Source of the DNA: Thermothelomyces thermophilus ATCC 42464
Taxonomy: Eukaryota; Ascomycota; Sordariomycetes; Sordariales; Chaetomiaceae
Direction: 5' to 3'
NCBI RefSeq assembly: GCF_000226095.1
Contig: NC_016478.1
Coordinates: 1,788,001-1,852,000 of the forward strand
DNA: 64,000 bases
A model generated the notes under the pieces. The model was not told the DNA's origin and ran no database searches. It saw nothing but the letters and a program-made list of their open reading frames with translations. A program made the translations under genes and the position numbers. Position 1 is the first letter of the stretch, and every line of letters starts with the position of its first letter. Of the stretch, positions 3,768-48,383 are shown in pieces.

Positions 3768-6469
3768 CTAGTCATCCTCATCATCCCAATTCGCCTGTCC
3801 ATACAACGCCCCTCGTCCACTACTACTTCCCGTGCCGCTGCTCTCGAGCTTCTCCAGGAATTCAGGCGGGATAGTCGGGATATACTTTCTCTCCCGCTCG
3901 CGGTTGAGCCCGCCGAACCCAGCGCCGTAGCTCACCAGCATGTCTGTGGAGCTCGGCAGGGTGAAGGGCAGCATGAGCGCCGGATCGAGGAGTAGATTGG
4001 GGGGCGCCTCGTCCTCCTCGTCGTCTCTGGCGCGGCCGCCAGCGTCGCCTTCTCCTCCTCCCGCCGTATCCGGTCTCGAGGTCCCGCCGGCTGCTGCCCC
4101 GTTGGACGTTTTCCCGCCTTCTTTCCTCCCCGGGGTCCCCGGCGGCGAGGCGGCCGCGGCCGCGGCAGCGCGGTTCCTCTCGCGCCTCAGGGCGGCCTCT
4201 TTCTGGATGGAGACGAGGTACTTCATGGCGCTCTTCGGCAGGCCCTTCTCGCCCACCTCGGGCCGGTAGTGCGTGGCGGCGTGGATGAGCTGCTGCGGGC
4301 TGAGGGCTTTCAGCTGCTGCAGCGTGGCGACGAGGGCCTCGAGGTCGTCGGCGTCGAGGGACGAGAAGCACTGCAGCCACTGGAGTAATTGAATGACGGG
4401 AGCCAGGTGGCGGCGAGCGGCTTCGACGGTGGTCTCGCCCGACGACTTCATCTCGCCCTTCTCGTAGTGTTCTGGCTGGCGGTTGTTTTGGCGCGCCCAG
4501 TCCTCCAGGGTTGATACGTTCATGCGGATCTGCATCGCTTTTGTGCGGGCCAGGTATTTCCTGTTCGACATGATGCGGTTGAAGAGCTCCGCACCGAGCC
4601 AGTAGATGAGTTGGGAGATGACCTGGGCCGTGATGACCGAGTGGACGTCGTAGAGGTCGAGGACGAAGAGAGTGGACGAGAGGAGCGAGGTCACGTTGCG
4701 CGGGGAAGGCTTGGCTCTCCGCTTGGGTGATGGTGGCCGGAGCCGCTTCTCGAGCGGCTCCTCCTTGACCTCCTTCCTCCGCTTGAAGATCTTCCATTCG
4801 TTTTGGAACGTGATGTCTTCAAAACCGGGTATCGTTTCGTGGTCCAGCATGGCCACGTCGAGGACCTTGTCGAGCCGGCGCTCGGCGTCCCGGACGATGA
4901 GTATGAATATCTCGTTGATCAGCTCGGCGAGCTGCGCCTGAAATTCGGTGGTTGCCTCGACAAGACCGGCGTCTTTCTTCAGGTAGTGCAGGAGAAGTGT
5001 TGCGTTTGACATCCAGAACGCCAAGATGGTCATATCCCATTGGTGCTTCTCGACCACGGCGTTGATCTTGTTCAAGGCCGTGATGAGCAGCTTAGCCAGT
5101 AGCTCGGGGCTGGAGTGATAGTGGGCGTACCGCGCCGCCAAGAAGATCATGTTTGCGGGCACCGGCTTCTGGGATGGCGACCGCTGCGGAGTCATGTTGG
5201 TGATGACGATATCCAGGATGCGCTCAAGCTCATTCTCCTGGAAGACGAACATCTGGTCGTGGAGACACCTGGACCAGTCGAACTCTTGCTGTTCTTCCTC
5301 GAAATCATCGAGCGACTTGAGAGACCGACAGTTAGCTTGGTCCGGGAAGGGGGCGCGAACGGAACTCTGGGAGTTTTACCTCGGGCTGGTCGTCTATGCC
5401 CACGTTCCCCAGGTCCACTTCTAGGTCGCGGGCACTCTCCATCATCATGCGCCGGCGCATCTCGTTCTCGGCCAGCTCCTCTTCCAGCTTGTCCTGGTCG
5501 AAGCCAGGGTTGTAGAAGTCATCGGTCGTCCCGGCGGTCCCGATGCCGTAGCCGCTGAGATAGAAGGACATGTCGCTGTCGGGGGCGACGAAGTCGAACG
5601 CCGTCCTCCCCGTCGAGGTCTTCGCTTCGGTGGAAGCACCGTTGTCTAGCAGTAGCTTCGCGATGCCCTTGTGTCGGTTGGTCATGGCCCACATGAGGGC
5701 GCTCCACTGGTTGCGGTCCTGCTTGTTGACGTCCACGCCGGCGTCAATGAGGGCCTGGACGACCGATTCGTGGCCCTGTGCCCGGGGTATTAATAAGCGG
5801 AGATGCGGGACGCTGCGAGCGCTCAACTCACAAAACAGCTTGCGTAGATGAGGGCGGGAGTCCCCTCATCGTCGGGCGCGTCGATGTCGACGTATTTCCT
5901 CGCCTTCCCCTCGAGGATCTTGGTGACCGACTCGAGATTGCCGTTGCTTGCCGCCATGATGAACGTCTTTTGCAGAATGTCCTTCTTCTCGTCCTCGGAC
6001 CTCTTGTCATCCGCGGCAATGGCGTCCTCGTCTTCGAAGGCGGCGCTCGCCGCATGAGCGGCCTGAGCGGCGAGCATCTCCATCAGGCGCGACTCGCTTT
6101 CCGGGCCGCCCTTGGTGAGGTCGTCGCCGTAGTTGTCTTCGAGCGTCAAGTCGCTGAAGGTCATGGGCTTCGCGACTATGGGCGACGTCAAGAACTGCGA
6201 TTGCCCTAAAAGGAGAATTGTTTAGCCACGGCTACTGGGAGAGGCCCGGTGGGCTTTTAGGAAGGAAGGGGGGAGGAGGGGTAAAGGGCGAGCCGAGGGG
6301 CACACTAACCCTGCCATCCGTCGTACATCTCCGCCTCGGGCATCAGCTCGGTTGGCACACGTCGCCTGTCGTCGAGGGAGCGCGGGAGATCGTCTGGGAG
6401 GGTCCTCGGCTTCGGCGGCTGCCCTGGGGTGCCGGCATCGAAGCCGCCTTCAGAGTCCCCGAGATCCAT
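3768..6469 (-). CDS. Ankyrin-repeat and DIL (dilute) domain protein
   Basis: Four exons on minus: 6310-6469, 5832-6205, 5380-5775 and 3768-5315. They join in frame to 825 aa. The start ATG at 6469 opens an acidic, proline-rich N-terminus. Ankyrin-type repeats lie at roughly residues 90-250, with a clear repeat containing VVQALIDAGVDVNKQD and a second with IAKLLLDNGAS. Roughly residues 315-640 resemble the dilute (DIL) domain, the cargo-binding globular tail of class V myosins, but there is no motor domain. An alanine-rich, acidic low-complexity tail follows. Fungal ankyrin-DIL proteins without a motor are a known arrangement; a role in membrane or cytoskeletal tethering is inference. All introns have GT...AG ends and keep phase. 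Confidence 0.85.
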
Positions 6470-20977: not shown

Positions 20978-21115
20978 ATGCCTGCTGAGCTAGAGTCCGC
21001 CGCCGCCGACGACGACCGCCATCGCCCCATCCTCCTACAAGATGGTCCAGCTCACGGCCGCCGCCCTCCATTTCCCATCATGCCTCCTTCATCCTCATCG
21101 CAGCAGCATGACGGT

Positions 21116-21147
<32 letters not shown>

Positions 21148-22555
21148 GCAAGAGCCGCAAAAACGTGACAGGAACCTGAGGGAACAGCGCCACACAAACA
21201 GAAACCTCGACGAGGACATCTCTCCGGATCCGCGACTGGCGACGGCAGCTGCGGCAGCGGCCGCCCTGAGCCGCGAGTCTTCTGCGCCCTCCAGCGCTCC
21301 CGCATCCAGCGGTGTCGATGCCATATCGAGCTACCAGCGCCTTGTCAAGCGCTACCGTGTCGAGGTGGCAGCCTCGGCATCCAGCGTGCTTTCCACCTTA
21401 ACAACCTTCCCGCTCGACAGTGTCAAGACGCGCATGCAGACGTACCGGTACGCCGGTTTCCTCGACTGCGTCAAGCACACGTACAGCACGGAGAAGTTTC
21501 GGGGCTTCTTCCGCGGCGTCACGGCGCCCATGGCCAGCATCACGCTCGTGCGGACCGTCTCCTTCTCCATCTACCAGCGGTCCAAGCACGCCTACTGCGA
21601 CTGGGTCAAGCGGAATTTGGGCGTCGACGTCATGGCCCACGTCAGCTCGCCGGGGAGCTTGCCGAGCTTCTGGTCCGTGGCGACGTTTGGCGCGGCCGGC
21701 GCGACGGCCGGGTCTTGCATAACGGTCATAGCCTGTGAGTTTGGCAGCGGAGAGGGGGGCCGGATCGGCGGTCTGCGTACTGACACTCTCGCTGCCAGGC
21801 CCGTTCGAGTTGACCAAGCTCAGCGCCCAGGTGTCCGTTCTGCTGGCGGACAAGAAGAACTATCCAAAGCCGGGAAGCCACGCGATCGCAGCGAGCTACC
21901 AGAACAAGGGAACGCTCAAGACGCTGGGGAACATCATCAAGCACAGGGGTTTCGGCGGGTTGTACACGGGATTTCGGTTACATCTGAGTAAGCGCGGTCC
22001 CCTTTTTTCCATTTTTTTTTTTTTTAGTTTCTTCTTTTTACTCTCCTTTTTTCTCTAGTTTTGTTGGTATCAACAATATCCGGCGAGGTGACTGACTCTT
22101 CTTGTCTCTTGTAGTGCGCGACACGCTCGGCACGGCAACCTATTTCATGACGTACGAAAGCAGCAAGCAGCTCCTGACCACTTTCGGGGGCGACGGCACC
22201 CATTCTAATCCGCTCGTCGTCGTCGTGGCCGGGGGCCTGTGCGGCATCGTTTCCTGGGCGTTGATATGTAAGCTAACACCCTCGAGGAATGTTGTCTCCT
22301 CCCGAGACGGACATGCATTGCTAACATGTCTGCCCTGTGCCTTCAGACCCCGTCGACTCGGCCAAGTCAATCTACCAGCGCAACTCCCTGATGTACTCCA
22401 AGGGCGAGAAGGTCGAGCCCGTCAAGATCCGCTTCTTCCAGCGCAACATGTACCGCGGCCTCGGCGTATCCATGGGACGGTCGTGTGCCGTCAATGCCGT
22501 CTTCTTCTCGTCGTTTGAGTTTCTGAAGAAGCGCATCAAGGCCTGGGACCAGTAA
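20978..22555 (+). CDS. Mitochondrial carrier family (SLC25) protein with long polyQ N-terminus
   Basis: Exons 20978-21734, 21799-21987, 22115-22267 and 22347-22555 join to 435 aa. Three carrier repeats are visible through their odd-helix signatures: PLDSVKTRMQTYRYAGF, PFELTKLSAQ and PVDSAKSIYQ. The canonical form is P-x-[DE]-x-x-[KR]. Each repeat is followed by a loop and an even-numbered helix (FRGFFRGVTAPM, GFGGLYTGFRLHL, MYRGLGVSMGRS). About 120 residues precede the first repeat and include a glutamine run, which is unusual because most SLC25 carriers start within 10-30 residues of repeat 1. An internal ATG at 21080 could give a slightly shorter form. The substrate is not evident. All three introns are phase 1 with canonical ends. 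Confidence 0.87.
21117..21151. repeat. CAG repeat encoding polyglutamine
   Basis: Interrupted (CAG)n in the first exon of the mitochondrial carrier gene, giving a Q-rich stretch with single lysine and glutamate interruptions. Confidence 0.85.
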
Positions 22556-24938: not shown

Positions 24939-25791
24939 GAAGAAAGAGAAGGATCGGCGGTCAAGCTCAGCGAAAGAGTCCCGAGGGCAGTTTCCGAGAT
25001 TCATCATTGAAGCCTCTCTTTCCAGATTTGGAGTACGACTTACACACTACAAAGCATTACATCGGGGGTTAGGGTTCGATATGTCAATTTTCCTGTTTTG
25101 TACCTTCCGCTTCTTGTTTCCGTACTATCGCTTCCACTCTTTCTCAAAATGATTCGATAAATTCTTAGCATCTCTGATACTCTCTTAGTGTATCCTATCT
25201 ATCTCCTGGATCTTTTCCATTCAAACTATCCGTCCGAGATTTTCATAACTTCCATCTCGGCTTCTCATTGGTTGCTACACAGTACGGCCAGCGATGATAC
25301 AACTGTGACCGGCTTGAAGAAAAACGATATCCCCTTCATCGCCATGGAGAACGATCGATACAAGAAATTCTCAGAATTGAAGTCCGATTACGAGATACTC
25401 TTGCACTGGTCTCATAAGGGAAGCTCAATGTTTGCATTTCTGATGACATAGGCCGGCTCGTTGTCGGCTACCAGTGGTTGGTTTCGCAATAGAGGATTTC
25501 ACCGGCACTGTGTACCGCTGCCGTACCCTCGACTCAAGGTTTTTTTTTTTCCGCATCCCACTCGCTTCATCAATCGGTTTTATGATGAGCAGGAAAGCAC
25601 ACGTCGGCCGCTGCCGGACTGGATATACCTCTGGACAGCCCTTCGAGAGGTTGACAGTCTAACGACTTCTGGAACTTTTTTGAGTTCTTTCTGTCTGTCA
25701 CCTGCCTCTCATTTTCAATTTTTTTTTTTTCCACTTGATCTTTATTTTCCTTTTTTTTCGTGATACCAGATTTGGATTGTCGGCAGAAGGC
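24939..25791. other. AT-richer interval with possible coding fragments
   Basis: About 850 bp between the kinase and RIX7. One plus frame runs open from 25188 to 25451 with plausible amino-acid composition (for example ENDRYKKFSELKSDYEILLH). A second frame, 25474-25662, contains FAIEDFTGTVYRCR. I could not join them into a supported gene. They could be an uncharacterised gene, a relic, or chance. Confidence 0.4.
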
Positions 25792-28212
25792 ATGTCACGA
25801 CGGCAAGGTTTCAACATGAGATTGGGCCTAGACCGCGACGTCTACCAAATAGTGCTCAAACTGGAAGAGGAGGGGGAGGATGGGCGTAAGCCCCGGCTCA
25901 CGGTCGGATCGGTCTACGAGAGCATCAAGCGATCCAATTCAAGCCTCGCCCGCCAAAAGAAGCGGCCCCTGGAGGATTCGATCGAGCGGGTGCTGGCGAT
26001 ACGAAGGGAGCAGACCAAGGCCGACGAGCAGGAAGACTCTGACGACCTTCTCGAGGCTCAGGAGCAGGAAAGGATAAAGGCGGCCAAGGCGGAACGCGAT
26101 CAGAACCTGCTCAACCGCCAAATTGCCAAATCCTGGGGGTTTGCCAGCCAGAAAGCCGCCGGCACAGGAGCTACCACCACGCCTGCCGAGACTCCCGCTA
26201 CAACGCCCGGGGCGCAACCACCACCACAGCCCGAGGCCACCCCTGCTGTAGCTGGCATGGACACTCCTACCGCTGCCGGGGACAGGCAGCCTAACGGCGA
26301 GCCACGGCCCAAGAAGAGGAAGAGCGCCCCCAAGGAGGTGGACAGGAGCCCGCCAACCGGCGTTTCCATCCTGGACATTGCCGGCGTCGACGACACCCTC
26401 GACCGCCTGCTGGACGAGGTCTGGTTTCCGCTCTGCGCCGGGGAGGCCTGCGAGAAGATGGGCTACCGATACGACAACGGCGTCCTGCTCCACGGTCCCT
26501 CCGGCTGCGGCAAGACGACCCTCGCGCACGCCGTCGCCGGCAGCATAGGGGTCGCCTTCATACCCGTTTCCGCGCCGTCCATCGTGGGCGGGACGTCGGG
26601 CGAGTCCGAGAAGAACATCCGCGACGTCTTTGACGAGGCGATCCGCCTCGCTCCCTGCCTGGTCTTCTTCGACGAGATCGATTCCATAGCGGGCAGGCGC
26701 GAGAGCGCAAACAAGGGAATGGAGAGCCGCATAGTCGCCGAGATCATGAACGGCATGGACCGCATCAAGCAGCAGACGCCGCTGGGGAAGAACGTCGTCG
26801 TACTGGCCGCCACGAACCGACCCGACTTCTTGGACCCGGCCATCCGCCGCCGCTTCAGCGCCGAGATCGACATGGGCATGCCCAGCGAGAAGGCGCGCGA
26901 GCACATCCTCCGGTCGCTGACGCGCGACCTCAGCCTGGCAGACGACGTCGACTTCAAGGAGCTGGCCAAGCTCACGCCCGGCTACGTCGGCAGCGACCTC
27001 CAATACGTCGTCAAGGCGGCGGTCTCGGGAAGCTGCCGCAGCAAGCTCGAGGACCTCCTCCAAAAGGCCCGCGCGCAGAGCGCGCCCGACTACCTCGGCA
27101 GCGCCTCGGAGCGGCAGCGCGACTGGATCCTCCTCCAGGAGCACCGGGCGGCGCCCTGGGAGGAGAGCCGCATCACCATGGCGCAGTTCCGAGCGGCCGT
27201 CTCGCGGGTGCAGCCGGCGTCGAAGCGCGAGGGCTTCAGCACGATCCCCGACACGACCTGGTCGCACGTGGGCGCGCTCGAGGACGTGCGCAAGAAGCTC
27301 GAGATGTCCATCATCGGGCCCATCAAGAACCCGGACCTCTTCAGCGCGGTGGGCATCAAGCCGGCCGCCGGCATCCTCCTCTGGGGCCCGCCGGGCTGCG
27401 GCAAGACGCTGGTGGCCAAGGCGGTCGCCAACGAGTCCAAGGCCAACTTCATCTCCATCAAGGGGCCCGAGCTGCTCAACAAGTACGTGGGCGAGTCGGA
27501 GCGGGCGGTGCGCCAGCTGTTCGCGCGCGCCAAGTCGTCAGCCCCCTGCATCCTCTTCTTCGATGAGATGGACGCGCTCGTGCCCAAGCGCGACGACTCG
27601 CTCTCGGACGCCAGCGCCCGCGTCGTCAACACCCTGCTCACCGAGCTCGACGGCGTCGGCGACCGCTCCGGCATCTACGTCATCGGGGCCACCAACCGGC
27701 CCGACATCATCGACGAGGCCATCCGCCGCCCCGGCCGCCTGGGCACCAGCATCTACGTCGGCCTACCCTCCCCCGACGACCGCGTCGACATCCTCCGCAC
27801 CCTGTACCGGAACACGGTGGCCGAGGCGAGGAAGGAGACGACGGCCAAGGCGAAGGCGGCGGCCACGGCGGCAGGGGACGTGGACATGCCCGACGCTTCT
27901 TCCCCCGCCCCGGGCGGCGCCACGGCACCGATCGGCACGGACGAGGCCGTCCTGGAGAAGGTGGCCCGCGACGTGCGCTGCACGGGCTTTTCGGGTGCCG
28001 ATCTCGGCAACCTGATGCAGGCGGCCGCGCAGGCGTGCCTGGAGAGGGCGTACCTGATGCGGAAGCGGGGGCCCGCGGGCGCGGGTGCGGGTGCGGCGGG
28101 GACGGCAGCGGCTCTCGAGCCCGTTATCACGATGGAGGACTGGGAAAAGGCCCTCACCGAGGTCAAGCCCAGTGTCAAGGACGCGGACAAGTATATGCTA
28201 GAGGGTCAGTAA
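25792..28212 (+). CDS. RIX7: Ribosome biogenesis AAA-ATPase RIX7 (NVL-like)
   Basis: Single exon of 806 aa. The ATG at 25792 is the best start: LGLDRDVYQIVLKLEEEG follows within ten residues, as in fungal RIX7. Residues 1-80 match the N-terminal nucleolar domain. A lysine-rich linker with KKRKS is a probable nuclear signal. Two AAA domains follow. D1 has Walker A GPSGCGKTT near residue 235 and Walker B LVFFDEIDS near 290. D2 has GPPGCGKTLVAKA near 532 and CILFFDEMDA near 586. RIX7/NVL is a hexameric unfoldase that releases factors from pre-60S ribosomes in the nucleolus. The loop between D2 and its C-terminal helices carries an alanine-rich insertion near residues 680-720. A long antisense frame beneath this gene is a codon-bias shadow. 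Confidence 0.93.
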   Translation: MSRRQGFNMRLGLDRDVYQIVLKLEEEGEDGRKPRLTVGSVYESIKRSNSSLARQKKRPLEDSIERVLAIRREQTKADEQEDSDDLLEAQEQERIKAAKAERDQNLLNRQIAKSWGFASQKAAGTGATTTPAETPATTPGAQPPPQPEATPAVAGMDTPTAAGDRQPNGEPRPKKRKSAPKEVDRSPPTGVSILDIAGVDDTLDRLLDEVWFPLCAGEACEKMGYRYDNGVLLHGPSGCGKTTLAHAVAGSIGVAFIPVSAPSIVGGTSGESEKNIRDVFDEAIRLAPCLVFFDEIDSIAGRRESANKGMESRIVAEIMNGMDRIKQQTPLGKNVVVLAATNRPDFLDPAIRRRFSAEIDMGMPSEKAREHILRSLTRDLSLADDVDFKELAKLTPGYVGSDLQYVVKAAVSGSCRSKLEDLLQKARAQSAPDYLGSASERQRDWILLQEHRAAPWEESRITMAQFRAAVSRVQPASKREGFSTIPDTTWSHVGALEDVRKKLEMSIIGPIKNPDLFSAVGIKPAAGILLWGPPGCGKTLVAKAVANESKANFISIKGPELLNKYVGESERAVRQLFARAKSSAPCILFFDEMDALVPKRDDSLSDASARVVNTLLTELDGVGDRSGIYVIGATNRPDIIDEAIRRPGRLGTSIYVGLPSPDDRVDILRTLYRNTVAEARKETTAKAKAAATAAGDVDMPDASSPAPGGATAPIGTDEAVLEKVARDVRCTGFSGADLGNLMQAAAQACLERAYLMRKRGPAGAGAGAAGTAAALEPVITMEDWEKALTEVKPSVKDADKYMLEGQ

Positions 28213-34555: not shown

Positions 34556-37500
34556 TTAACCCCCCAGGGCAGTAACCTTCAACCCCTTGGGTACCGTCCA
34601 ACCATGCGATTTCGCGGCTCTCGTGAAGGCCTCGATAGCCTCCCCGATGCTATAATCCCCCTTATACCCGGGGCGGGCGCCAGTCTTCCTCAGGAGCCTG
34701 GGGTCCAGCCGCGCCGGTCTCGGCTCCAAGTTGCACAGCGCCATGCGCACCTGCAGCAGCACGCTCTCCATGCTGTTGGCCGGACTCCAGCCCGACTCCG
34801 TCAGCAGCTCCATGCACATGGCGCCGCCCGCCGTGACGTGCCCCCCGCCGCCCTCCATGAAGGGCAGGAAGCGCGGGCGGACAACGCGCACAAATGGCGG
34901 GGAGAAGGGAAAGTCCGATCCGAAGCGCAACTCGAGCACAACCGAGGTGGCCTGGGCCAGCTTCATGTCCTGGGCTAGCGGCAAGCTTACGTCAAAGCTG
35001 TGCAGCTCGATGATCCACTGGTACAGGTTGCTCACGTTGTCGAAGTCGACGTACCAGCCGAGCTCGTGAAGTGGTGTCTTGGCCTGCAGGGCCTGGAGAT
35101 CCCGCAGCTCGCGGCTGAGCGCTCTTGTGGCGCCGTCGGTCGCAAACGAAGGGGGCTGAAGGCGCGGGAGAGTTGAGAGGTCTAGTGCGCCGGGCTCAAA
35201 CTCGGTTAGGCCGCGGCCGACGCTGCTGCTGGCCGGGCTCGGAGGGCCGCCGCGGCTTACATGAGATATGTTTTGAATGCTCGCCGCGCCCACACTAGAG
35301 GCCGGCGATGCTGGTTTTTTGCTCGGTGGAATGTAGAAGTCGTCGTCCTCATCATCTGACATCAGGCGGGACGCGTCTTCGGCATCCTCGTCTTCACTCT
35401 CCTCCAGCAGGTGCATTGTCCGTTTCGCGGAATCCGGCGGCGTGGCTGGTGCCGGGCCAATTGTTCGAAGTGGGATGGCACACAGAGGGATTTTCAAGGG
35501 CTGGTAGCCTTGTCCAAAAGCCTCACCTCCCCGCGCCTGTGGATAGAAAGCCGGGCTGGTCGTCGTACCACCATTGGCTGCCTGGTCTTGAGCCAACTCC
35601 TGCGTCCTACCCGCGGCTGTCTGGACAAAGAGGTAACGGCACTGCTGCCAATCCAGCTGAGACACCACGTAGTGAGGGTTAGAGGACACAAACTCGTCCG
35701 GTGCATTGATGATCTCGTTCAGACTCAAGCAGTTGGTGATGCCGAGGTCTGAGTTGGGCCACGATTGCCCCTTGGAGGCATATCCCACGCTGGTCTCTTT
35801 CCACCGGCTGAAGTAGACACCATGCCCAAAGGCGCGCCCGCTGTTGATGTTCTGGAAGTCCAAGCCGGTCCGCAGAATGCTGTGCCAGTTTGCTAAGTTG
35901 CTCCCGTGCCATGCGAAAATGGTCGGGTTATGGCCGATGTGCTTGCGTGCAGCGACCTCTTGGAGGGCTCGGTTGAAGCGTAATTCCTTGTCTGGTGCAC
36001 CCTGGGCAAAGCGGAATTGGACCCATCCATCCATGCCCAAGATGCGCTCGTGCTCCCGGTTTCTTCCCCTGCCAGCTACTCCAGCGGTCTCCGGAGGCCC
36101 CATGTTCTTCTTCTTCGCGCCGGGCGCTGGTTTTCCCCTCTCGATGGGCCCCTTTGCTCGTCGAGCGATAGCCCGCGAGCGGTCAACCTGAAGAATACAG
36201 GACCGGTTTGAGGACACAATCCATTGAAGGAGCGACGCGGCAGCGGGGGAGATGCGTCCCATGGCGCGGAAACTGTGCCCCGGGTGACTGGCCAGCCATT
36301 CCTCAATCTCGAGGATGGGCGGAAGGGTATCGAGAAGATGTCGCATTGCGGCGGCCTTGCTGAAGTCGTCCAAGGAGTCAAAGTCAGTGTCGTAGAGGTA
36401 GATATCCACCATGTCAGCGTCGTCCGTCGCTGCGCTTGGCGTCATGCTACCGGTGGCAGGACTCGGCCCTGGTTGGTTTGGCAAGTATTGCGGACTGTAT
36501 TGTGAAAAGGACCAAGAGACGACAGACTCGCCAATCACTTCAATAACGGCGGTCTTGGGAGAGCTGTAGACTTCCTTCACCCGTGCATTCCGGATGAGGC
36601 GCGTCGTGGGGTTTGGGAAAGCAAGCCAAGCGCCTGGTGCCAGGCGGCCTCCGAGGCTTTTCGCGGCCTCATCTTCAAAAACGATATGCTTGTCACCGGC
36701 TTCGAGCCTCGCCTTGAATGTTACTGCCGTGGGATTGGTCAAGTCCGGAACCCTGAGGCGCAAGCCGACCGGGAAGGAGCGGATTGGGAACTTGGGACGC
36801 GTATTCGAAGGATTGTTTGCCAAGTGGATGGAGGCTGGTTGGACGGCGGCGTAGCATAGGCTGACGAGGAGATCGACAACGTAAGGCTCCGTAAGAATCT
36901 CATGCTCTATCGAAGGGCCGAGTCCCACGGCCATGTACTGGAACAGGCACAGTGGGTCAGAGCAGACGTAGGGCCGCAGAGCTTCGAAGCCTTTCTCGAG
37001 ACGACGATGGCACCGCAGGCAGTATTCGGTGCACCTAACAAAGTAGCGCATGGCGAACTGGACCGCAATAAGAGGGAAGCTGCGCTCGCTGTCATTGCCT
37101 CCCTGCAGAAGGTGGTCTGCGCCGGGGACCCGAACAGGTTCGGGCTCGGGGGCAGTGTTGTTGGAGTCGGCATCAGAGTGCGGGTTATACCCCCAGCTCT
37201 CCTCGGCAACTAAACCGATCCTTGACAACAAGACGTCATTGGCCTTTTCCCAGCTGCAGCCGTGAGCCTCCCGGATCTTGAGGAGAGATATGAAACTCTC
37301 ACACATGAACGAGTCCAACGAGTTAGAGACCAGTAGTTTCTCGAACCTTGTCTCATCGCTATCCCGTTCTGTCGACTTCACTGGTTCGGACCCCTCGGTG
37401 GAAACGGAACGGTTGGGCTTTGCGAAGGCTCGCGAGGCCTGCTCGATCGACGGCTTGTGTTTGCTGCATTTTCCGATGCGGAAGGTCACTTCCGTGCGCG

Positions 37501-38263
37501 CGGCAGCCTGGTTAAAGACTTGTTCCAGTGGATAGTACTTCCTGTCGAACCGGACTAGGAGGACAACGTACTCGGTGGGCTTCACATCCCACGCCTCCAT
37601 GGCCTCGTTCGATAGAGCCAGTTTGTCAAGACGGATGGAAAGAGCAATGGTGCCGGTTGTAGAATCCTTGCCAAAGCCATCGAGGAAGCCGACTCTGTAG
37701 CCAGCTTCTCTTACCTCTCGGAGGTCTCTCCTGATGCGCCGAAGCAAGTCTTTTTGGTTGACTGACGAGTTCAAGTTGTGGTGCGAGCGTTGCGCTGGCA
37801 GTGACGGGAGGCCAAATTCGTCCCCATCTGAGGGATAGTCTGTGTCAAATGCAACATCATAGTCGTCAACTTCGTCTTCTTCAGTCACGTCGCCCGGGCT
37901 TCCGACCTCTCCGTCAAGTGCGCGGCCAATCTCCTTCTCCAAGCGGCGGACCAGCTCCGTCACCATTTCGTAGACGGACATGCCTAGCAGGTATTCTCGG
38001 GCGGCTTTTACCGCAGCGGCCACGGGTGTGGGCGGATCTGGATCATCGGTCCAGAGCATGAACATGTTTCCGTCGGGATACTCGCCGACATCCTGAGCCA
38101 GGGCCTGGATGCGAACATCTGCCAGCAAGCTCTCATGATGGTACTTGATGACAACCTCGCCATCAGAGTCGCCAGTCGTTATGGAGCGCACGCCTGGAAT
38201 TTCGCCGCTGGCAGCTTTCTGGCCTGCCGTGGAGACATCGGCCTTGAACTTCTTGAAGCCCAT
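34556..38263 (-). CDS. PARP catalytic domain fused to UBE2Q-like E2 domain
   Basis: Single exon of 1235 aa, starting at the ATG at 38263 (MGFKKFKADVSTAGQK). Residues about 1-600 show no named domain; they include acidic stretches and a Cys-rich segment CTEYCLRCHRRLEKGF...CSDPLCLFQY that could bind zinc. Near residue 784 begins a PARP-type ADP-ribosyltransferase core: FAWHGSNLANWHSILRTGLD, then GHGVYFS. These supply the His and Tyr of the H-Y-E triad; the third position appears to be His (SNPHYVVSQLDW). An acidic linker leads to a C-terminal UBC domain like UBE2Q, with a candidate active cysteine near residue 1149 in GAMCMELLTESGWSPANSME. PARP-UBC fusions are known in fungi, but their target is not. 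Likely role: ADP-ribosylation coupled to ubiquitin transfer (inference). Confidence 0.88.
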   Translation of the reverse strand: MGFKKFKADVSTAGQKAASGEIPGVRSITTGDSDGEVVIKYHHESLLADVRIQALAQDVGEYPDGNMFMLWTDDPDPPTPVAAAVKAAREYLLGMSVYEMVTELVRRLEKEIGRALDGEVGSPGDVTEEDEVDDYDVAFDTDYPSDGDEFGLPSLPAQRSHHNLNSSVNQKDLLRRIRRDLREVREAGYRVGFLDGFGKDSTTGTIALSIRLDKLALSNEAMEAWDVKPTEYVVLLVRFDRKYYPLEQVFNQAAARTEVTFRIGKCSKHKPSIEQASRAFAKPNRSVSTEGSEPVKSTERDSDETRFEKLLVSNSLDSFMCESFISLLKIREAHGCSWEKANDVLLSRIGLVAEESWGYNPHSDADSNNTAPEPEPVRVPGADHLLQGGNDSERSFPLIAVQFAMRYFVRCTEYCLRCHRRLEKGFEALRPYVCSDPLCLFQYMAVGLGPSIEHEILTEPYVVDLLVSLCYAAVQPASIHLANNPSNTRPKFPIRSFPVGLRLRVPDLTNPTAVTFKARLEAGDKHIVFEDEAAKSLGGRLAPGAWLAFPNPTTRLIRNARVKEVYSSPKTAVIEVIGESVVSWSFSQYSPQYLPNQPGPSPATGSMTPSAATDDADMVDIYLYDTDFDSLDDFSKAAAMRHLLDTLPPILEIEEWLASHPGHSFRAMGRISPAAASLLQWIVSSNRSCILQVDRSRAIARRAKGPIERGKPAPGAKKKNMGPPETAGVAGRGRNREHERILGMDGWVQFRFAQGAPDKELRFNRALQEVAARKHIGHNPTIFAWHGSNLANWHSILRTGLDFQNINSGRAFGHGVYFSRWKETSVGYASKGQSWPNSDLGITNCLSLNEIINAPDEFVSSNPHYVVSQLDWQQCRYLFVQTAAGRTQELAQDQAANGGTTTSPAFYPQARGGEAFGQGYQPLKIPLCAIPLRTIGPAPATPPDSAKRTMHLLEESEDEDAEDASRLMSDDEDDDFYIPPSKKPASPASSVGAASIQNISHVSRGGPPSPASSSVGRGLTEFEPGALDLSTLPRLQPPSFATDGATRALSRELRDLQALQAKTPLHELGWYVDFDNVSNLYQWIIELHSFDVSLPLAQDMKLAQATSVVLELRFGSDFPFSPPFVRVVRPRFLPFMEGGGGHVTAGGAMCMELLTESGWSPANSMESVLLQVRMALCNLEPRPARLDPRLLRKTGARPGYKGDYSIGEAIEAFTRAAKSHGWTVPKGLKVTALGG

Positions 38264-39652: not shown

Positions 39653-40951
39653 ATGGCCTGGGACTCAAAGGCGGCCCGCCGGAGGAAAAGCAGTGCCGCA
39701 TCGGGGACGAGGAGCATAGCCATCCACGCCAGACAGCAGTCGAGACGTGTCGCCCAGCCACGTTCTCAACATGTAGCAGATCCTTTCCTCCAGGACTTTC
39801 TGAGCCCGTCGTTTGACGCCGCCTCATACCTCAATGCGACTTTACCGCCGCTGCAAACCTCGTCTCGCACATCTGGGAGCCAAGGCTCGGCCCGGGAAGC
39901 AGTACCGCTTGCAGAACTCTCGATACAGACGCAGGAGTTGCTCTCTCAGCTCAACGCCCACACCACCAGGCTGACCAATACCCTGACCGAGTTGACAAAC
40001 GACATCCTCAGGAGTGGCAGCCGCCTAGCCTACGAGGTAGAGCTCTTGCGGGGCGAGACACTCAGTTTGGCGGAGGCGCTTTCCGAGGGGCTCGAGCATG
40101 ACATTTCCAGGTTCGTGCCGGGCGGCGTCCGGGACATCATGGCCGAGCCGAAGGCCGGCGTTGACAGCCATGGCACGTCTGCGCATCAGCGACGCAAGTC
40201 GATACTCATGGCCGCCCCGGGAGCCACGGCAGGGGCCACGAGAGCCGCCGCTGAAGGCACAGCAGCGCCAGCACCAGCGCCAGCGCCGGCAGAAGGCCCG
40301 GCCGGCCAGGCCGAGACGTCGAGCGCGCCCTCCGAGCCGCCCTACATCACCCAGCTGCGCACACTTACCCTGGTCCGCTCCCGCCTCGAGTCCGTCATCA
40401 AGACCTTCGGCGACGCCATGGAATTTGTCTTCCCTCCCTCCGAGCTCTCCGTCAGCTCCTCCTTCCTCTCCGTCTCGGCCCCGGACGCCGACGGCGGCGG
40501 CCGCCACAGCACCGAGGAGAAAGGCCAGCAGGTCCTCCGCAAGCTGCGCGACGAAATATCCGGCCTCCTCTCCGGCAACGACGGGGGCGACCCGATCAAG
40601 GGCATCGAGGACGCCGCGCGCCGCGTCGAGGAACTCAAGGAGCTGACCACCGTCTGGAAGGGCACGGCGGAGGAGAAGGGCCGCACCAAGTTTGTCGAGA
40701 GCTTGGCTAAGATGGTGGAGGATAGACATCGGGAGCTGCTGAGGGAGGTGGAGGCGCAGCAGCAGCAACAGCAACAGCAGCAGCAGCAGTCTTCGGGCCG
40801 GCGGGACGGAGCCGGCAGGCCCCAGGCGGAGGCGAGCGGCAAAGCGGCCGGTGGTGTCGAGGTTGCTGATGGTCCGGGGCAGACCGAGACCAAGGGTTAC
40901 GGCGCTTACGGGTTGATCAGCCAGCTACAGAGGCTGAGGAACGGCTTGTGA
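39653..40951 (+). CDS. COG7: COG7-like conserved oligomeric Golgi complex subunit
   Basis: Single exon of 432 aa. The N-terminal half contains FLSPSFDAASYLNATLPPLQ and a long helical region (IQTQELLSQLNAHTTRLTNT and onward) typical of COG/CATCHR tether subunits. An alanine/proline linker follows. A second helical block starts ITQLRTLTLVRSRLESVIKT and then reads FGDAMEFVFPPSEL. Near the C-terminus a glutamine run is encoded by CAG/CAA repeats at 40757-40789. COG tethers vesicles for retrograde transport within the Golgi. Assignment to COG7 rests on length and on the N-terminal motif; COG5 begins with a similar motif but is much longer, so COG7 is preferred. Confidence 0.65.
   Translation: MAWDSKAARRRKSSAASGTRSIAIHARQQSRRVAQPRSQHVADPFLQDFLSPSFDAASYLNATLPPLQTSSRTSGSQGSAREAVPLAELSIQTQELLSQLNAHTTRLTNTLTELTNDILRSGSRLAYEVELLRGETLSLAEALSEGLEHDISRFVPGGVRDIMAEPKAGVDSHGTSAHQRRKSILMAAPGATAGATRAAAEGTAAPAPAPAPAEGPAGQAETSSAPSEPPYITQLRTLTLVRSRLESVIKTFGDAMEFVFPPSELSVSSSFLSVSAPDADGGGRHSTEEKGQQVLRKLRDEISGLLSGNDGGDPIKGIEDAARRVEELKELTTVWKGTAEEKGRTKFVESLAKMVEDRHRELLREVEAQQQQQQQQQQQSSGRRDGAGRPQAEASGKAAGGVEVADGPGQTETKGYGAYGLISQLQRLRNGL
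40757..40789. repeat. CAG/CAA repeat coding for polyglutamine
   Basis: Eleven glutamine codons mixing CAG and CAA near the 3' end of the COG7-like gene. Confidence 0.85.
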
Positions 40952-46345: not shown

Positions 46346-48383
46346 ATGGAAGGAGCAGCAGAGGCAAGCATGCAAGTACCTGGCGAGGTTGCAGCGCAGC
46401 ATTCGTTCCTCTTTCCAATCGGTGAGTCCCGAGATTCCGAGCCATCTCACCCAACCGTTCGGGCCATGTGCGTCAACGGCACGATATCGTTGGCCAATCC
46501 GCTCCGGAGACCACGCGATCTCCTCCCGCATTCTACACCACGCCTGAGTGGGCTTATGGTGCCGTCTCAATCTCTTGTCCTCCCGTGCTGTATTCACGAG
46601 CCTACACGAAAGCCAATCCCTTCACCATTTCACCCCACTCACAGCTAGCGCTGGATCCTTTTTCCTTCTGTCATGGGTTTCGGCCGCCAATGCGGCGGTT
46701 CCCCAACCACAGCCCCGGGTTCCACATCAAAGTGTACTGCGTTTTTCGACAAGATTACAGATGCTAACGGTCTTGTCAACACAACTAGGCTATGATAACT
46801 CTTCCGAGTGCGGGTATTGCCGAAGAAGCCGTGGTGGTCAGTTTGCAAAGCGTGAATGTTCTTCCCTCCTGACTGTGACATGACCTGGCGTTCATCGTTT
46901 ACACATCCCCGGACACATGCGGAACGGCTGCCCATCCCGAGCCTCCTGGTCGGCTCGACCACCCCCCACCCTCCCACTCTTCGGTCACGCTCCAGGATAG
47001 GCATCCTCTCACTAGAGATGCCTTGCCACCACTCGCGTCCATGAATGCGATGTCAACTAACACTCATTTTCTGCAGGTTATTCCTACTATGCCATAGCGA
47101 CGTCCCTGACCCCAGCCTTCTACCAAAAGATCGTTGACCGTTGCTGGAGGCGCTCTGGCACTCTTTTGTACCGGCCGAATCCGAGGCACTCGTGTTGCCC
47201 ACACTACACCCTTCGGTTGGATTCGACCCAGTTCAAACCCACCAAGGACCAACGCCAGGCCGTCAACCGCTTTAACCGCCACATTATCGGGGATACCTAT
47301 GTCAGGGAGGCGGCCCGTCTGCATCCGCGATCCCGCGCCGAGGTAAGGAGGCGCCACAATGTCTTTGACCTGGTCGAGAGAATCCACGAGCCAGAGGCCC
47401 AAGCCCTCAAGACCCCCCCAACACCGGACCACGACTTTACTGTCACTCTAGAGCCGGATACGTTCACCGAGGAGAAGTACGAGGTTTTTGAGAACTACCA
47501 GCGCGTCGTCCACCGCGAGCCGCCCGAGAAGATATCCCGCAATGGTTTTAAGCGGTTTCTGTGCAACTCCCCCCTGAGCCGGGGTGTAATGGTAGGCCCG
47601 GACGGTAGGGAACGCCAGCTGGGATCCTTCCACCAGTGTTACCGCATTGACGGAAAGCTGGTTGCCGTCGGCGTGCTAGACCTCCTACCCGATTGCGTGA
47701 GCGCTGTGTACTTCCTTTACCATGAGTCGATACATTGGCTCAACCCGGGCAAGCTCGGCGCGCTGCGGGAGATAGCCCTGGCACGCGAGGCCGGCTACCG
47801 TTGGTGGTACCCTGGCTACTACGTGCATAATTGCGCAAAGATGAGGTACAAGATCGAGTACAAACCGCAGTATGTCCTGGATCCAGAAGATCTGCGGTGG
47901 TATCCGCTTGATAAGGAGGCGCTGGCGCGGTTCGATAAGGCACATTACGTCTGTTTCTCGAGAGACATGCGGGAACATGAACAGGTCAGTCATGACGACG
48001 GGATCCACGACGGCACAGCAGAACCGCCGCTGCCAGAAGCAGCAGGAACATGTGCTAGTGGAGCCGGCCCACCAGAAGAAGCAGATGAAGATGATGTCGA
48101 CGAGTATGAGGAAGGGGAAGGGGAGGAGGGGACCTTCCTTCTGTCTAGCAGCATGCCCGGAATCCCATCGCTCGCCGAGATGGAACAGGTTAACATGGAC
48201 GGCCTGGTGCTACGGTCCGACTTCTCGGACAACCTGATCGTCGCCTCGCACCTTGTCAGTTGGGATACGGAGAAAATCTCCGACTTTGGCACGCTCAAGT
48301 CGCGCATTGCCGAGCTCGTGGCGGCTGTAGGGCCCGATCTGATTGGCGAGATCTGTATTGATTTTCGGAGGAGGTCTTCGTGA
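46346..48383 (+). CDS. ATE1: Arginyl-tRNA--protein transferase ATE1
   Basis: Three exons, 46346-46421, 46789-46836 and 47077-48383, join to 476 aa. ATE1 transfers arginine from Arg-tRNA to N-terminal Asp, Glu or oxidised Cys, marking proteins for the Arg/N-degron ubiquitin pathway. The spliced N-terminus reads FPIGYDNSSECGYCRRSRGG, then YSYYAIATSLTPAFYQKIVD. The CxxC (CGYC) and a later CC in HSCCPHYTLRLD are the conserved cysteines linked to activity and to Fe-S binding in this family. The C-terminal GNAT-like half has GKLVAVGVLDLLPDCVSAVY and ALREIALAREAGYRWWYPGY. An acidic insertion lies near residues 340-370. The first two introns, 367 and 240 bp, are long for this genome. Confidence 0.92.

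Follow-up and report, generated by a model that had tools for sequence, protein, structure and literature searches.

The fusion gene and its reading frame

The window analyzed here is a stretch of 64,000 nucleotides from Thermothelomyces thermophilus ATCC 42464 (contig NC_016478.1). Its reverse strand carries one open reading frame that encodes 1235 amino acids, has no internal stops, and combines an ADP-ribosyltransferase (ART, or PARP) core with a UBE2Q-type E2 core in a single chain (Table 1). Between stops, the longest frame anywhere in the window spans 1246 codons, compared with a maximum of 317 over 30 base-shuffled copies of the window, and the start codon lies in the context GCCGCCATGG. 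A simple intron scan gave seven candidates (mean of 3.6 in 200 codon shuffles), one of them in frame (residues 1077–1098; mean of 1.2 in shuffles). Because this candidate is inside a stretch that aligns to UBE2Q, we read it as coding. Given the unbroken frame and the outcome of the intron scan, the possibility of two separate mRNAs was rejected, and the single, probably intron-free gene proposed in the initial annotation stands.

Table 1. Features of the PARP-E2 gene, in protein order (window coordinates)
Feature	Coordinates	Strand	Basis
Whole CDS including stop (P0001), clade 6 PARP and UBE2Q-type E2 fusion	34556..38263	-	ORF, profile and PDB sequence matches
RWD/E2-like domain, residues 1–116, 0 cysteines, inside the N-terminal "FPE" region described in the available text of Citarelli 2010	37916..38263	-	Predicted structure
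Possible second E2/RWD-like unit (helix, strands), residues 170–267, unproven	37463..37756	-	Low-confidence model, block pLDDT <50
C4 motif C415-x2-C418-x15-C434-x4-C439, residues 415–439	36947..37021	-	CX2CX9-19CX4C pattern, found once in protein
Expected place of PARP6/8/16 helical extension, residues ~640–770	35954..36346	-	Position only, inferred
ART (PARP) catalytic core, residues ~777–885 (end at 885 weak)	35609..35935	-	Profile and PDB match, motif positions
Linker, residues ~901–1035, with acidic stretch	35159..35563	-	Composition: Pro/Ser/Thr/Gly/Ala 0.50, hydrophobic 0.22
UBE2Q-type E2 core, residues 1041–1180, C1150 at catalytic place, H1142 in HPN-Asn column	34724..35143	-	PDB sequence alignments
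C-terminal tail, residues 1181–1235, H1220-G-W1222-x-x-P1225 resembling UBE2Q1 N412-x-W414-x-x-P417	34559..34723	-	Spacing against residue names in excerpts of PMC10971424

Both halves that the initial annotation had recognized (a PARP core and a UBE2Q-like E2) were detected by Pfam profiles and by sequence matches to PDB structures, with PF00644 and PF00179 each above cut-off. The motifs are essentially where they had been placed: WHGS at 785–788 (given as near 784), GVYFS at 815–819, and the candidate active cysteine at 1150 (given as near 1149). The spacing of about 360 residues between the cores agrees with the 364 residues from H786 to C1150. The whole-protein Pfam scan returned PARP and UQ_con only; NCBIfam gave no match, and PADLOC gave only weak E2 and E1-E2 matches (E = 0.004). 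Searches with the whole protein and with the E2 piece found no relatives in viral or bacterial/archaeal contig collections, and tblastn found none among plasmids and phages. These are non-fungal collections and the result therefore says nothing on rarity among fungi.

The ART half and the region upstream of it

The PARP profile PF00644 matches residues 777–834 (E = 3.1e-10, 40.3 bits, cut-off 26.7), over profile positions 46–105 of 199, and a PDB sequence search matched PARP16 (4f0d, E = 6.9e-9). H786, G787, Y817, S825, and Y828, which we take to be residues of the NAD+ pocket, are all present. An exon of a PARP1-like gene in the same genome can be aligned to the sequence surrounding Y817, and none of 500 shuffles scored as high. 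By counting from RYLF, the third triad place is perhaps H864, in a weak local alignment matched by 58 of 500 shuffles. No Glu is apparent within the NPHYVV..RYLF stretch. Because of this, and because the available passages of Citarelli 2010 (PMC2964712) report the final Glu of the HYE triad in no clade 6 protein, mono-transfer is suggested, and the ART half is probably a PARP6/8-like mono-ADP-ribosyltransferase.

Upstream of the PARP domain, the C4 motif fits CX2CX9-19CX4C, the pattern given for PARP6/8 homologues in the part of Perina 2014 available to us. At the N terminus, residues 1–116 are predicted to resemble E2/RWD folds and would be catalytically empty. It should be noted that this fold comes from the best of five models and is a poor single-sequence prediction, as are the other four. 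Searched by sequence against the PDB, the N-terminal pieces gave nothing convincing (best E values 1.9 and 0.92), and residues 170–267 had no match. The Pfam RWD profile had 12 matches at E <= 1 over the genome, none of them in the PARP-E2 gene.

As far as the excerpted text of PMC10450202 goes, human PARP6 and PARP8 likewise have a C4 zinc finger ahead of the ART domain, together with one or more RWD (E2-related) domains and an additional N-terminal RWD in PARP8, and RWDs are also reported for UBE2Q1 (excerpts of PMC10971424). In contrast to the protein described here, no C-terminal E2 is described for PARP6/8 in those passages. The C4 finger comes ahead of their main, split RWD; here the order is the opposite, the modeled RWD-like domain lying ahead of the C4 motif (residues 446–640 are outside the model).

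The UBE2Q-type E2 half

Pfam UQ_con (PF00179) matches residues 1110–1181 (E = 2.9e-7, 30.6 bits, cut-off 27). Among E2s of known structure, the top-ranked sequence matches are 1zuo (E = 3.5e-22) and UBE2Q1 (2qgx, E = 3.8e-20), followed by the next E2 at only 4.8e-6; another PDB sequence search gave 5.4e-21 for 1zuo and 6.1e-19 for 2qgx. The PDB title of 1zuo is hypothetical protein LOC92912, and we take it to be UBE2Q2. GGHVTAGGAMCMELLTESGWS, the active-site stretch, gives a gap-free alignment to the UBE2Q structures that places C1150 at the active-site cysteine position of UBCc domains. At GGGGHVTAGGAMC the HPN motif is absent, as in UBE2Q E2s and unlike canonical E2s, and by spacing H1142 occupies the column of the HPN Asn. 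Of 29 profile matches in the genome, the 8 best canonical E2 loci have Asn in this column; a UBE2W-like E2 locus has His there. We looked for a second UBE2Q-type E2 in the same genome and found none.

In the available sections of PMC10971424, human UBE2Q1 and UBE2Q2 transfer ubiquitin to Ser, Thr, glycerol, and glucose, and to a lesser extent to Lys. Histidines close to the catalytic cysteine are said to recur among hydroxyl-ubiquitylating enzymes (excerpts of PMC11649903). UBE2W, with His at the HPN-Asn place, modifies N-terminal amines according to the same two partial sources; it shares the His replacement with the E2 described here but differs in retaining the leading His-Pro and in having no ART domain. 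The likeness to human UBE2Q1/UBE2Q2 extends to the missing HPN, a similar active-site stretch, an N-terminal RWD in the same chain, and a Trp-x-x-Pro tail, as far as these features are given in the excerpts of PMC10971424. The differences are the absence of an ART domain in the human proteins, the change of Tyr343 to His1142, and the lack of His409 at the equivalent place.

By spacing, one of the three UBE2Q1 triad residues (Tyr343/His409/Trp414) is kept in place, the equivalents being H1142, A1217, and W1222; a His lies three residues beyond A1217. The tail part of this comparison depends on Trp-x-x-Pro alone, the tail being left unaligned by phmmer. According to the partial text of PMC10971424, triad mutants of UBE2Q1 other than Y343F retain ubiquitin loading and show no discharge on a B4GALT1 peptide.

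Possible coupling of the two activities

The PARP plus UBC architecture is itself already known, in fungi since 2010, as the initial annotation had pointed out with reference to PARP surveys. In the passages available, Citarelli 2010 (PMC2964712) names the fungal PARP-UBC proteins PARP clade 6A, and Perina 2014 adds PARP6/8 homologues with UBCc from one moss and one green alga. Judged by sequence, the protein appears to be an ascomycete-type clade 6A member. It shares with those descriptions an extended N-terminal part with a predicted RWD-like fold, a PARP domain of clade 6, and a C-terminal UBCc with active cysteine, with no difference among the features tested against that text. In clade 6A the N-terminal part is described as FPE (Pfam-B_30617), a sequence domain of about 360 aa. 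The clade 6A passages do not assign the E2 to the UBE2Q type; in them the His is "shared with typical UBCc domains", whereas H1142 is in the HPN-Asn column by spacing. In the open-licence literature, among the matches listed (judged in part by title or start of abstract), we found only surveys and reviews; none reported functional work on fungal PARP-UBC proteins or tied them to UBE2Q.

The reading that we favor, tentatively and at a little short of an even chance, is that this clade 6A protein carries a PARP6/8-like ART domain and a UBE2Q-type E2 on either side of a flexible linker, the E2 passing ubiquitin to the ART domain's own target with a preference for hydroxyls. E1 would charge C1150 with ubiquitin, the ART domain would move single ADP-riboses from NAD+ to the target, and the RWD/C4 part may recruit targets or an E3. 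The tethered E2 would then hand ubiquitin to the same target, on a hydroxyl (serine, threonine, sugar, or possibly ADP-ribose) over lysine, so that the fusion would tie the second mark to the site where the first is written. Such a two-step modification gains specificity because the E2 is UBE2Q-type and human UBE2Qs discharge ubiquitin on hydroxyls (excerpts of PMC10971424). It is weighed down by the two of three UBE2Q1 activity residues that are not conserved at their places.

A more specific and doubtful version is a single-chain writer of a hybrid mark, in which the ART half would mono-ADP-ribosylate a target and the E2 would esterify ubiquitin onto an ADP-ribose hydroxyl (or a neighboring Ser/Thr), the base being H1142 and/or the His of the tail, and no Deltex ligase being required. 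We propose it because human UBE2Qs attach ubiquitin to hydroxyls and sugars, at least in the text available. In vitro, Deltex ligases working with a separate E2 produce the ADP-ribose-ubiquitin ester (excerpts of PMC12000418 and PMC12203941). Deltex ligases and MARUbylation (partial text of PMC12000418; see also PMC12583694) resemble the proposal in coupling mono-ADP-ribosylation to ubiquitin on one target; they differ in that ART, E2, and E3 are separate proteins. Profiles for the Deltex DTC domain and PARG_cat_C had no match in the genome in searches run without a positive control, and we do not claim absence.

Alternatively, the activities may be co-located without chemical coupling, which we consider possible, if rather unlikely. 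The ART domain would modify itself or partners (e.g., as an on/off switch of the E2), and the E2 would be an ordinary RING-assisted, lysine-directed enzyme with other targets. The long low-complexity linker and the partly kept UBE2Q1 triad are consistent with this, as is H1142, which the genome's UBE2W-like E2 shares, UBE2W being amine-directed in the sources excerpted above. However, the UBE2Q-type structures match far better than the next E2 (3.5e-22 and 3.8e-20 vs. 4.8e-6), and the human UBE2Qs prefer hydroxyls in the passages cited.

It is unlikely that one half is catalytically silent, either the ART being a degenerate module that binds NAD+ or serves in docking, with the E2 as sole enzyme, or the reverse. 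The final triad Glu is not apparent and Pfam covers less than the whole ART profile (positions 46–105 of 199), but the E2 cysteine is kept, and so are the His, Gly, Tyr, Ser, and Tyr of the presumed NAD+ pocket. Very unlikely is a protein that limits rather than extends ubiquitylation, its ART domain modifying ubiquitin itself or E2-charged ubiquitin: this draws on the analogy of bacterial effectors that ADP-ribosylate ubiquitin, whereas the PARP9 case was later put down, in the available part of PMC12203941, to DTX3L, a Deltex ligase that makes ubiquitin-ADP-ribose. Two adjacent genes or an assembly join taken as one are highly improbable, since the frame is open for 1246 codons, its sole in-frame intron candidate is within the aligned E2 core, and chains with both PARP and UBCc are on record from fungi, a moss, and a green alga (Citarelli 2010; Perina 2014, as excerpted).

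To the known architecture we add the C4 pattern as in PARP6/8 homologues, a cysteine-free N-terminal domain with a model that appears to resemble E2/RWD folds, and an E2 of UBE2Q type, the sole one found in the genome, with His1142 at the HPN-Asn place as in the organism's own UBE2W-like E2. The E2-like folds of PARP6/8 are called enigmatic, with roles yet to be described, in the accessible text of a 2025 review (PMC12687431). With a PARP6/8-like transferase and an E2 of UBE2Q type in one natural chain, the protein offers a compact means of testing whether the two activities are coupled. If the hybrid-mark reading were true, human PARP6/8 would be relatives still carrying the docking part in the form of their empty E2-like domains, and the E2 would have been lost from them or never acquired.

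Two enzyme cores in one reading frame

Comparison of sequences and motifs establishes two predicted catalytic folds in a single frame of the fusion protein, together with a candidate active-site cysteine, the absence of the HPN motif from the E2 half, and a C4 pattern (C415-x2-C418-x15-C434-x4-C439, as in PARP6/8 homologues). The frame comprises 1235 residues with no internal stops, and its start codon context is GCCGCCATGG. The stop-to-stop stretch around it, at 1246 codons, is longer than any other in the window (maximum of 317 in 30 base-shuffled copies). A scan for fungal-type introns returned seven candidates, against a mean of 3.6 over 200 codon shuffles; just one candidate keeps the frame (shuffle mean 1.2). 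Because this sole in-frame candidate falls within the UBE2Q-aligned E2 core, we treat the gene as intron-free from its DNA sequence, in agreement with the initial annotation.

Profile searching, which that annotation had proposed as a check, detected both folds, each above its curated cut-off: Pfam PARP (PF00644) at residues 777–834 (E 3.1e-10; covering only positions 46–105 of the 199 in the profile) and UQ_con (PF00179) at residues 1110–1181 (E 2.9e-7). With both in one unbroken frame, the claim of a PARP and an E2 in one chain stands, and we regard this architecture as almost certain. Among solved structures, the ART half is nearest to PARP16 (4f0d, 2.8e-10). The E2 half is nearest to 1zuo (3.5e-22; listed as hypothetical protein LOC92912, which we take to be UBE2Q2), then UBE2Q1 (2qgx, 3.8e-20) and canonical E2s (best 4.8e-6). 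A model of low confidence gives residues 170–267 a helix and strands, and this segment could be a second E2/RWD-like unit.

The architecture is already described, and the earlier statement that surveys contain such fusions is confirmed: fungal PARP-UBC proteins form clade 6A, with a UBCc that has its cysteine and an N-terminal fungal “FPE” domain of partly RWD-like secondary structure (Citarelli et al. 2010, PMC2964712), and UBCc-bearing PARP6/8 homologues are reported from Ascomycota, Basidiomycota, a moss, and Chlamydomonas (Perina et al. 2014). The first two groups are also those in which fungal UBE2Q-type domains chiefly occur (2024 survey, PMC11354881). Human PARP6/8 contain RWD domains and a C4 finger (PMC10450202, 2023).

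Active-site residues of the two halves

The ART half carries H786 and G787 (WHGS), Y817 (GVYFS), S825, and Y828, whose roles we assume to be those of PARP1. Over 21 columns around Y817, the score against an exon of the genome's own PARP1-like gene (residues 1–60 of its frame) was matched by 0 of 500 shuffles. For the H864 region, the formal alignment spans 8 columns, and 58 of 500 shuffles did as well; counted from the shared RYLF, H864 is perhaps the third triad place. If the observation that no clade 6 PARP has the final Glu of the HYE triad (Citarelli et al. 2010) is valid here, mono-ADP-ribosylation is expected. Judging from its families, the ART half is moderately likely to be an active ADP-ribosyltransferase, which would carry out this modification using NAD+.

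In the E2 half, C1150 lies within GGGGHVTAGGAMCMELLTESGWSP, which aligns without gaps to the UBE2Q active site from GGHV onward, and family membership makes it quite likely that this cysteine is loaded with ubiquitin. We aligned the fusion E2 (MAFFT) with nine E2 open frames of the same genome, chosen by a motif permitting Asn or His at the HPN-Asn place. H1142 occupies that column, which holds Asn in eight frames (the best 8 of 29 profile matches) and His in one, a UBE2W-like E2 (locus L005, G000:C1:1575111-1575317, + strand) in which HPH replaces HPN and which matches 3we5 at 1e-16 and UBE2W (2mt6) at 2.3e-15. The UBE2Q1 counterpart of H1142 is Tyr343, eight residues upstream of the cysteine, and the UBE2Q1 tail houses the remaining activity residues, His409 and Trp414 (numbering of PMC10971424). 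The fusion tail has W1222-x-x-P1225, resembling W414-x-x-P417, but A1217 at the place of His409, with H1220 three residues further; the phmmer alignment to E2 structures did not extend into this tail. The fusion E2 thus lacks the full Tyr343/His409/Trp414 set, and has a histidine in both regions (H1142 and H1220).

Proposed working and genomic setting

Human UBE2Q1/2 ubiquitylate hydroxyls and sugars (Abdul Rehman et al. 2024, PMC10971424), and ubiquitin is reported in ester linkage to protein-bound mono-ADP-ribose (Bejan et al. 2025). Judging from the protein families, the N-terminal part may recruit targets or an E3, and the E2 half might, tentatively, pass ubiquitin preferentially to hydroxyl acceptors. 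That the chain attaches ubiquitin to ADP-ribose of its own making is speculative and, in our estimate, unlikely. MavL, a Legionella macrodomain protein that binds ADP-ribose, also binds UBE2Q1 through the RWD of the latter, with no ADP-ribosylation of UBE2Q1 detected in that work; this is an independent hint that UBE2Q meets ADP-ribose biology. Titles and abstract openings in the open-licence literature (subscription papers and preprints lay outside) yielded no paper tying the fungal fusion to UBE2Q chemistry. The value of the fusion protein is that the PARP6/8-ubiquitin question becomes testable on a single recombinant protein.

In the genome (38.74 Mb, 7 contigs), the three PARP-profile matches come from two genes: one lies in the fusion gene, and the other two are exons of the PARP1-like gene on C2. 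An exon-wise search with the whole fusion protein returned itself and the UBE2W-like gene (E 0.012) alone, so no second UBE2Q-type E2 was found. There were two Macro-domain matches, and none to the Deltex DTC or PARG_cat_C profiles in searches run without a positive control.

Coordinates of the fusion gene and its neighbours in the window
Feature	Position	Strand	Profile evidence
DIL-domain protein	3768-5252	-	PF01843, 4.7e-32
Mitochondrial carrier	20978-21991	+	PF00153, 4e-15
Double AAA ATPase	25735-28209	+	PF00004, two stretches, 7e-85
Fusion gene	34556-38263	-	
Residues 170-267 of fusion protein	37463-37756	-	
Open frame on opposite strand, upstream of fusion gene	39653-40951	+	weak COG5_N, 1.8e-4, below cut-off
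Arginyl-tRNA-protein transferase (N-degron enzyme)	47166-48383	+	ATE_C 2.8e-43, ATE_N 3.7e-8

Another protein-modification gene, that of the arginyl-tRNA-protein transferase, lies ~9 kb from the fusion gene, probably by chance.
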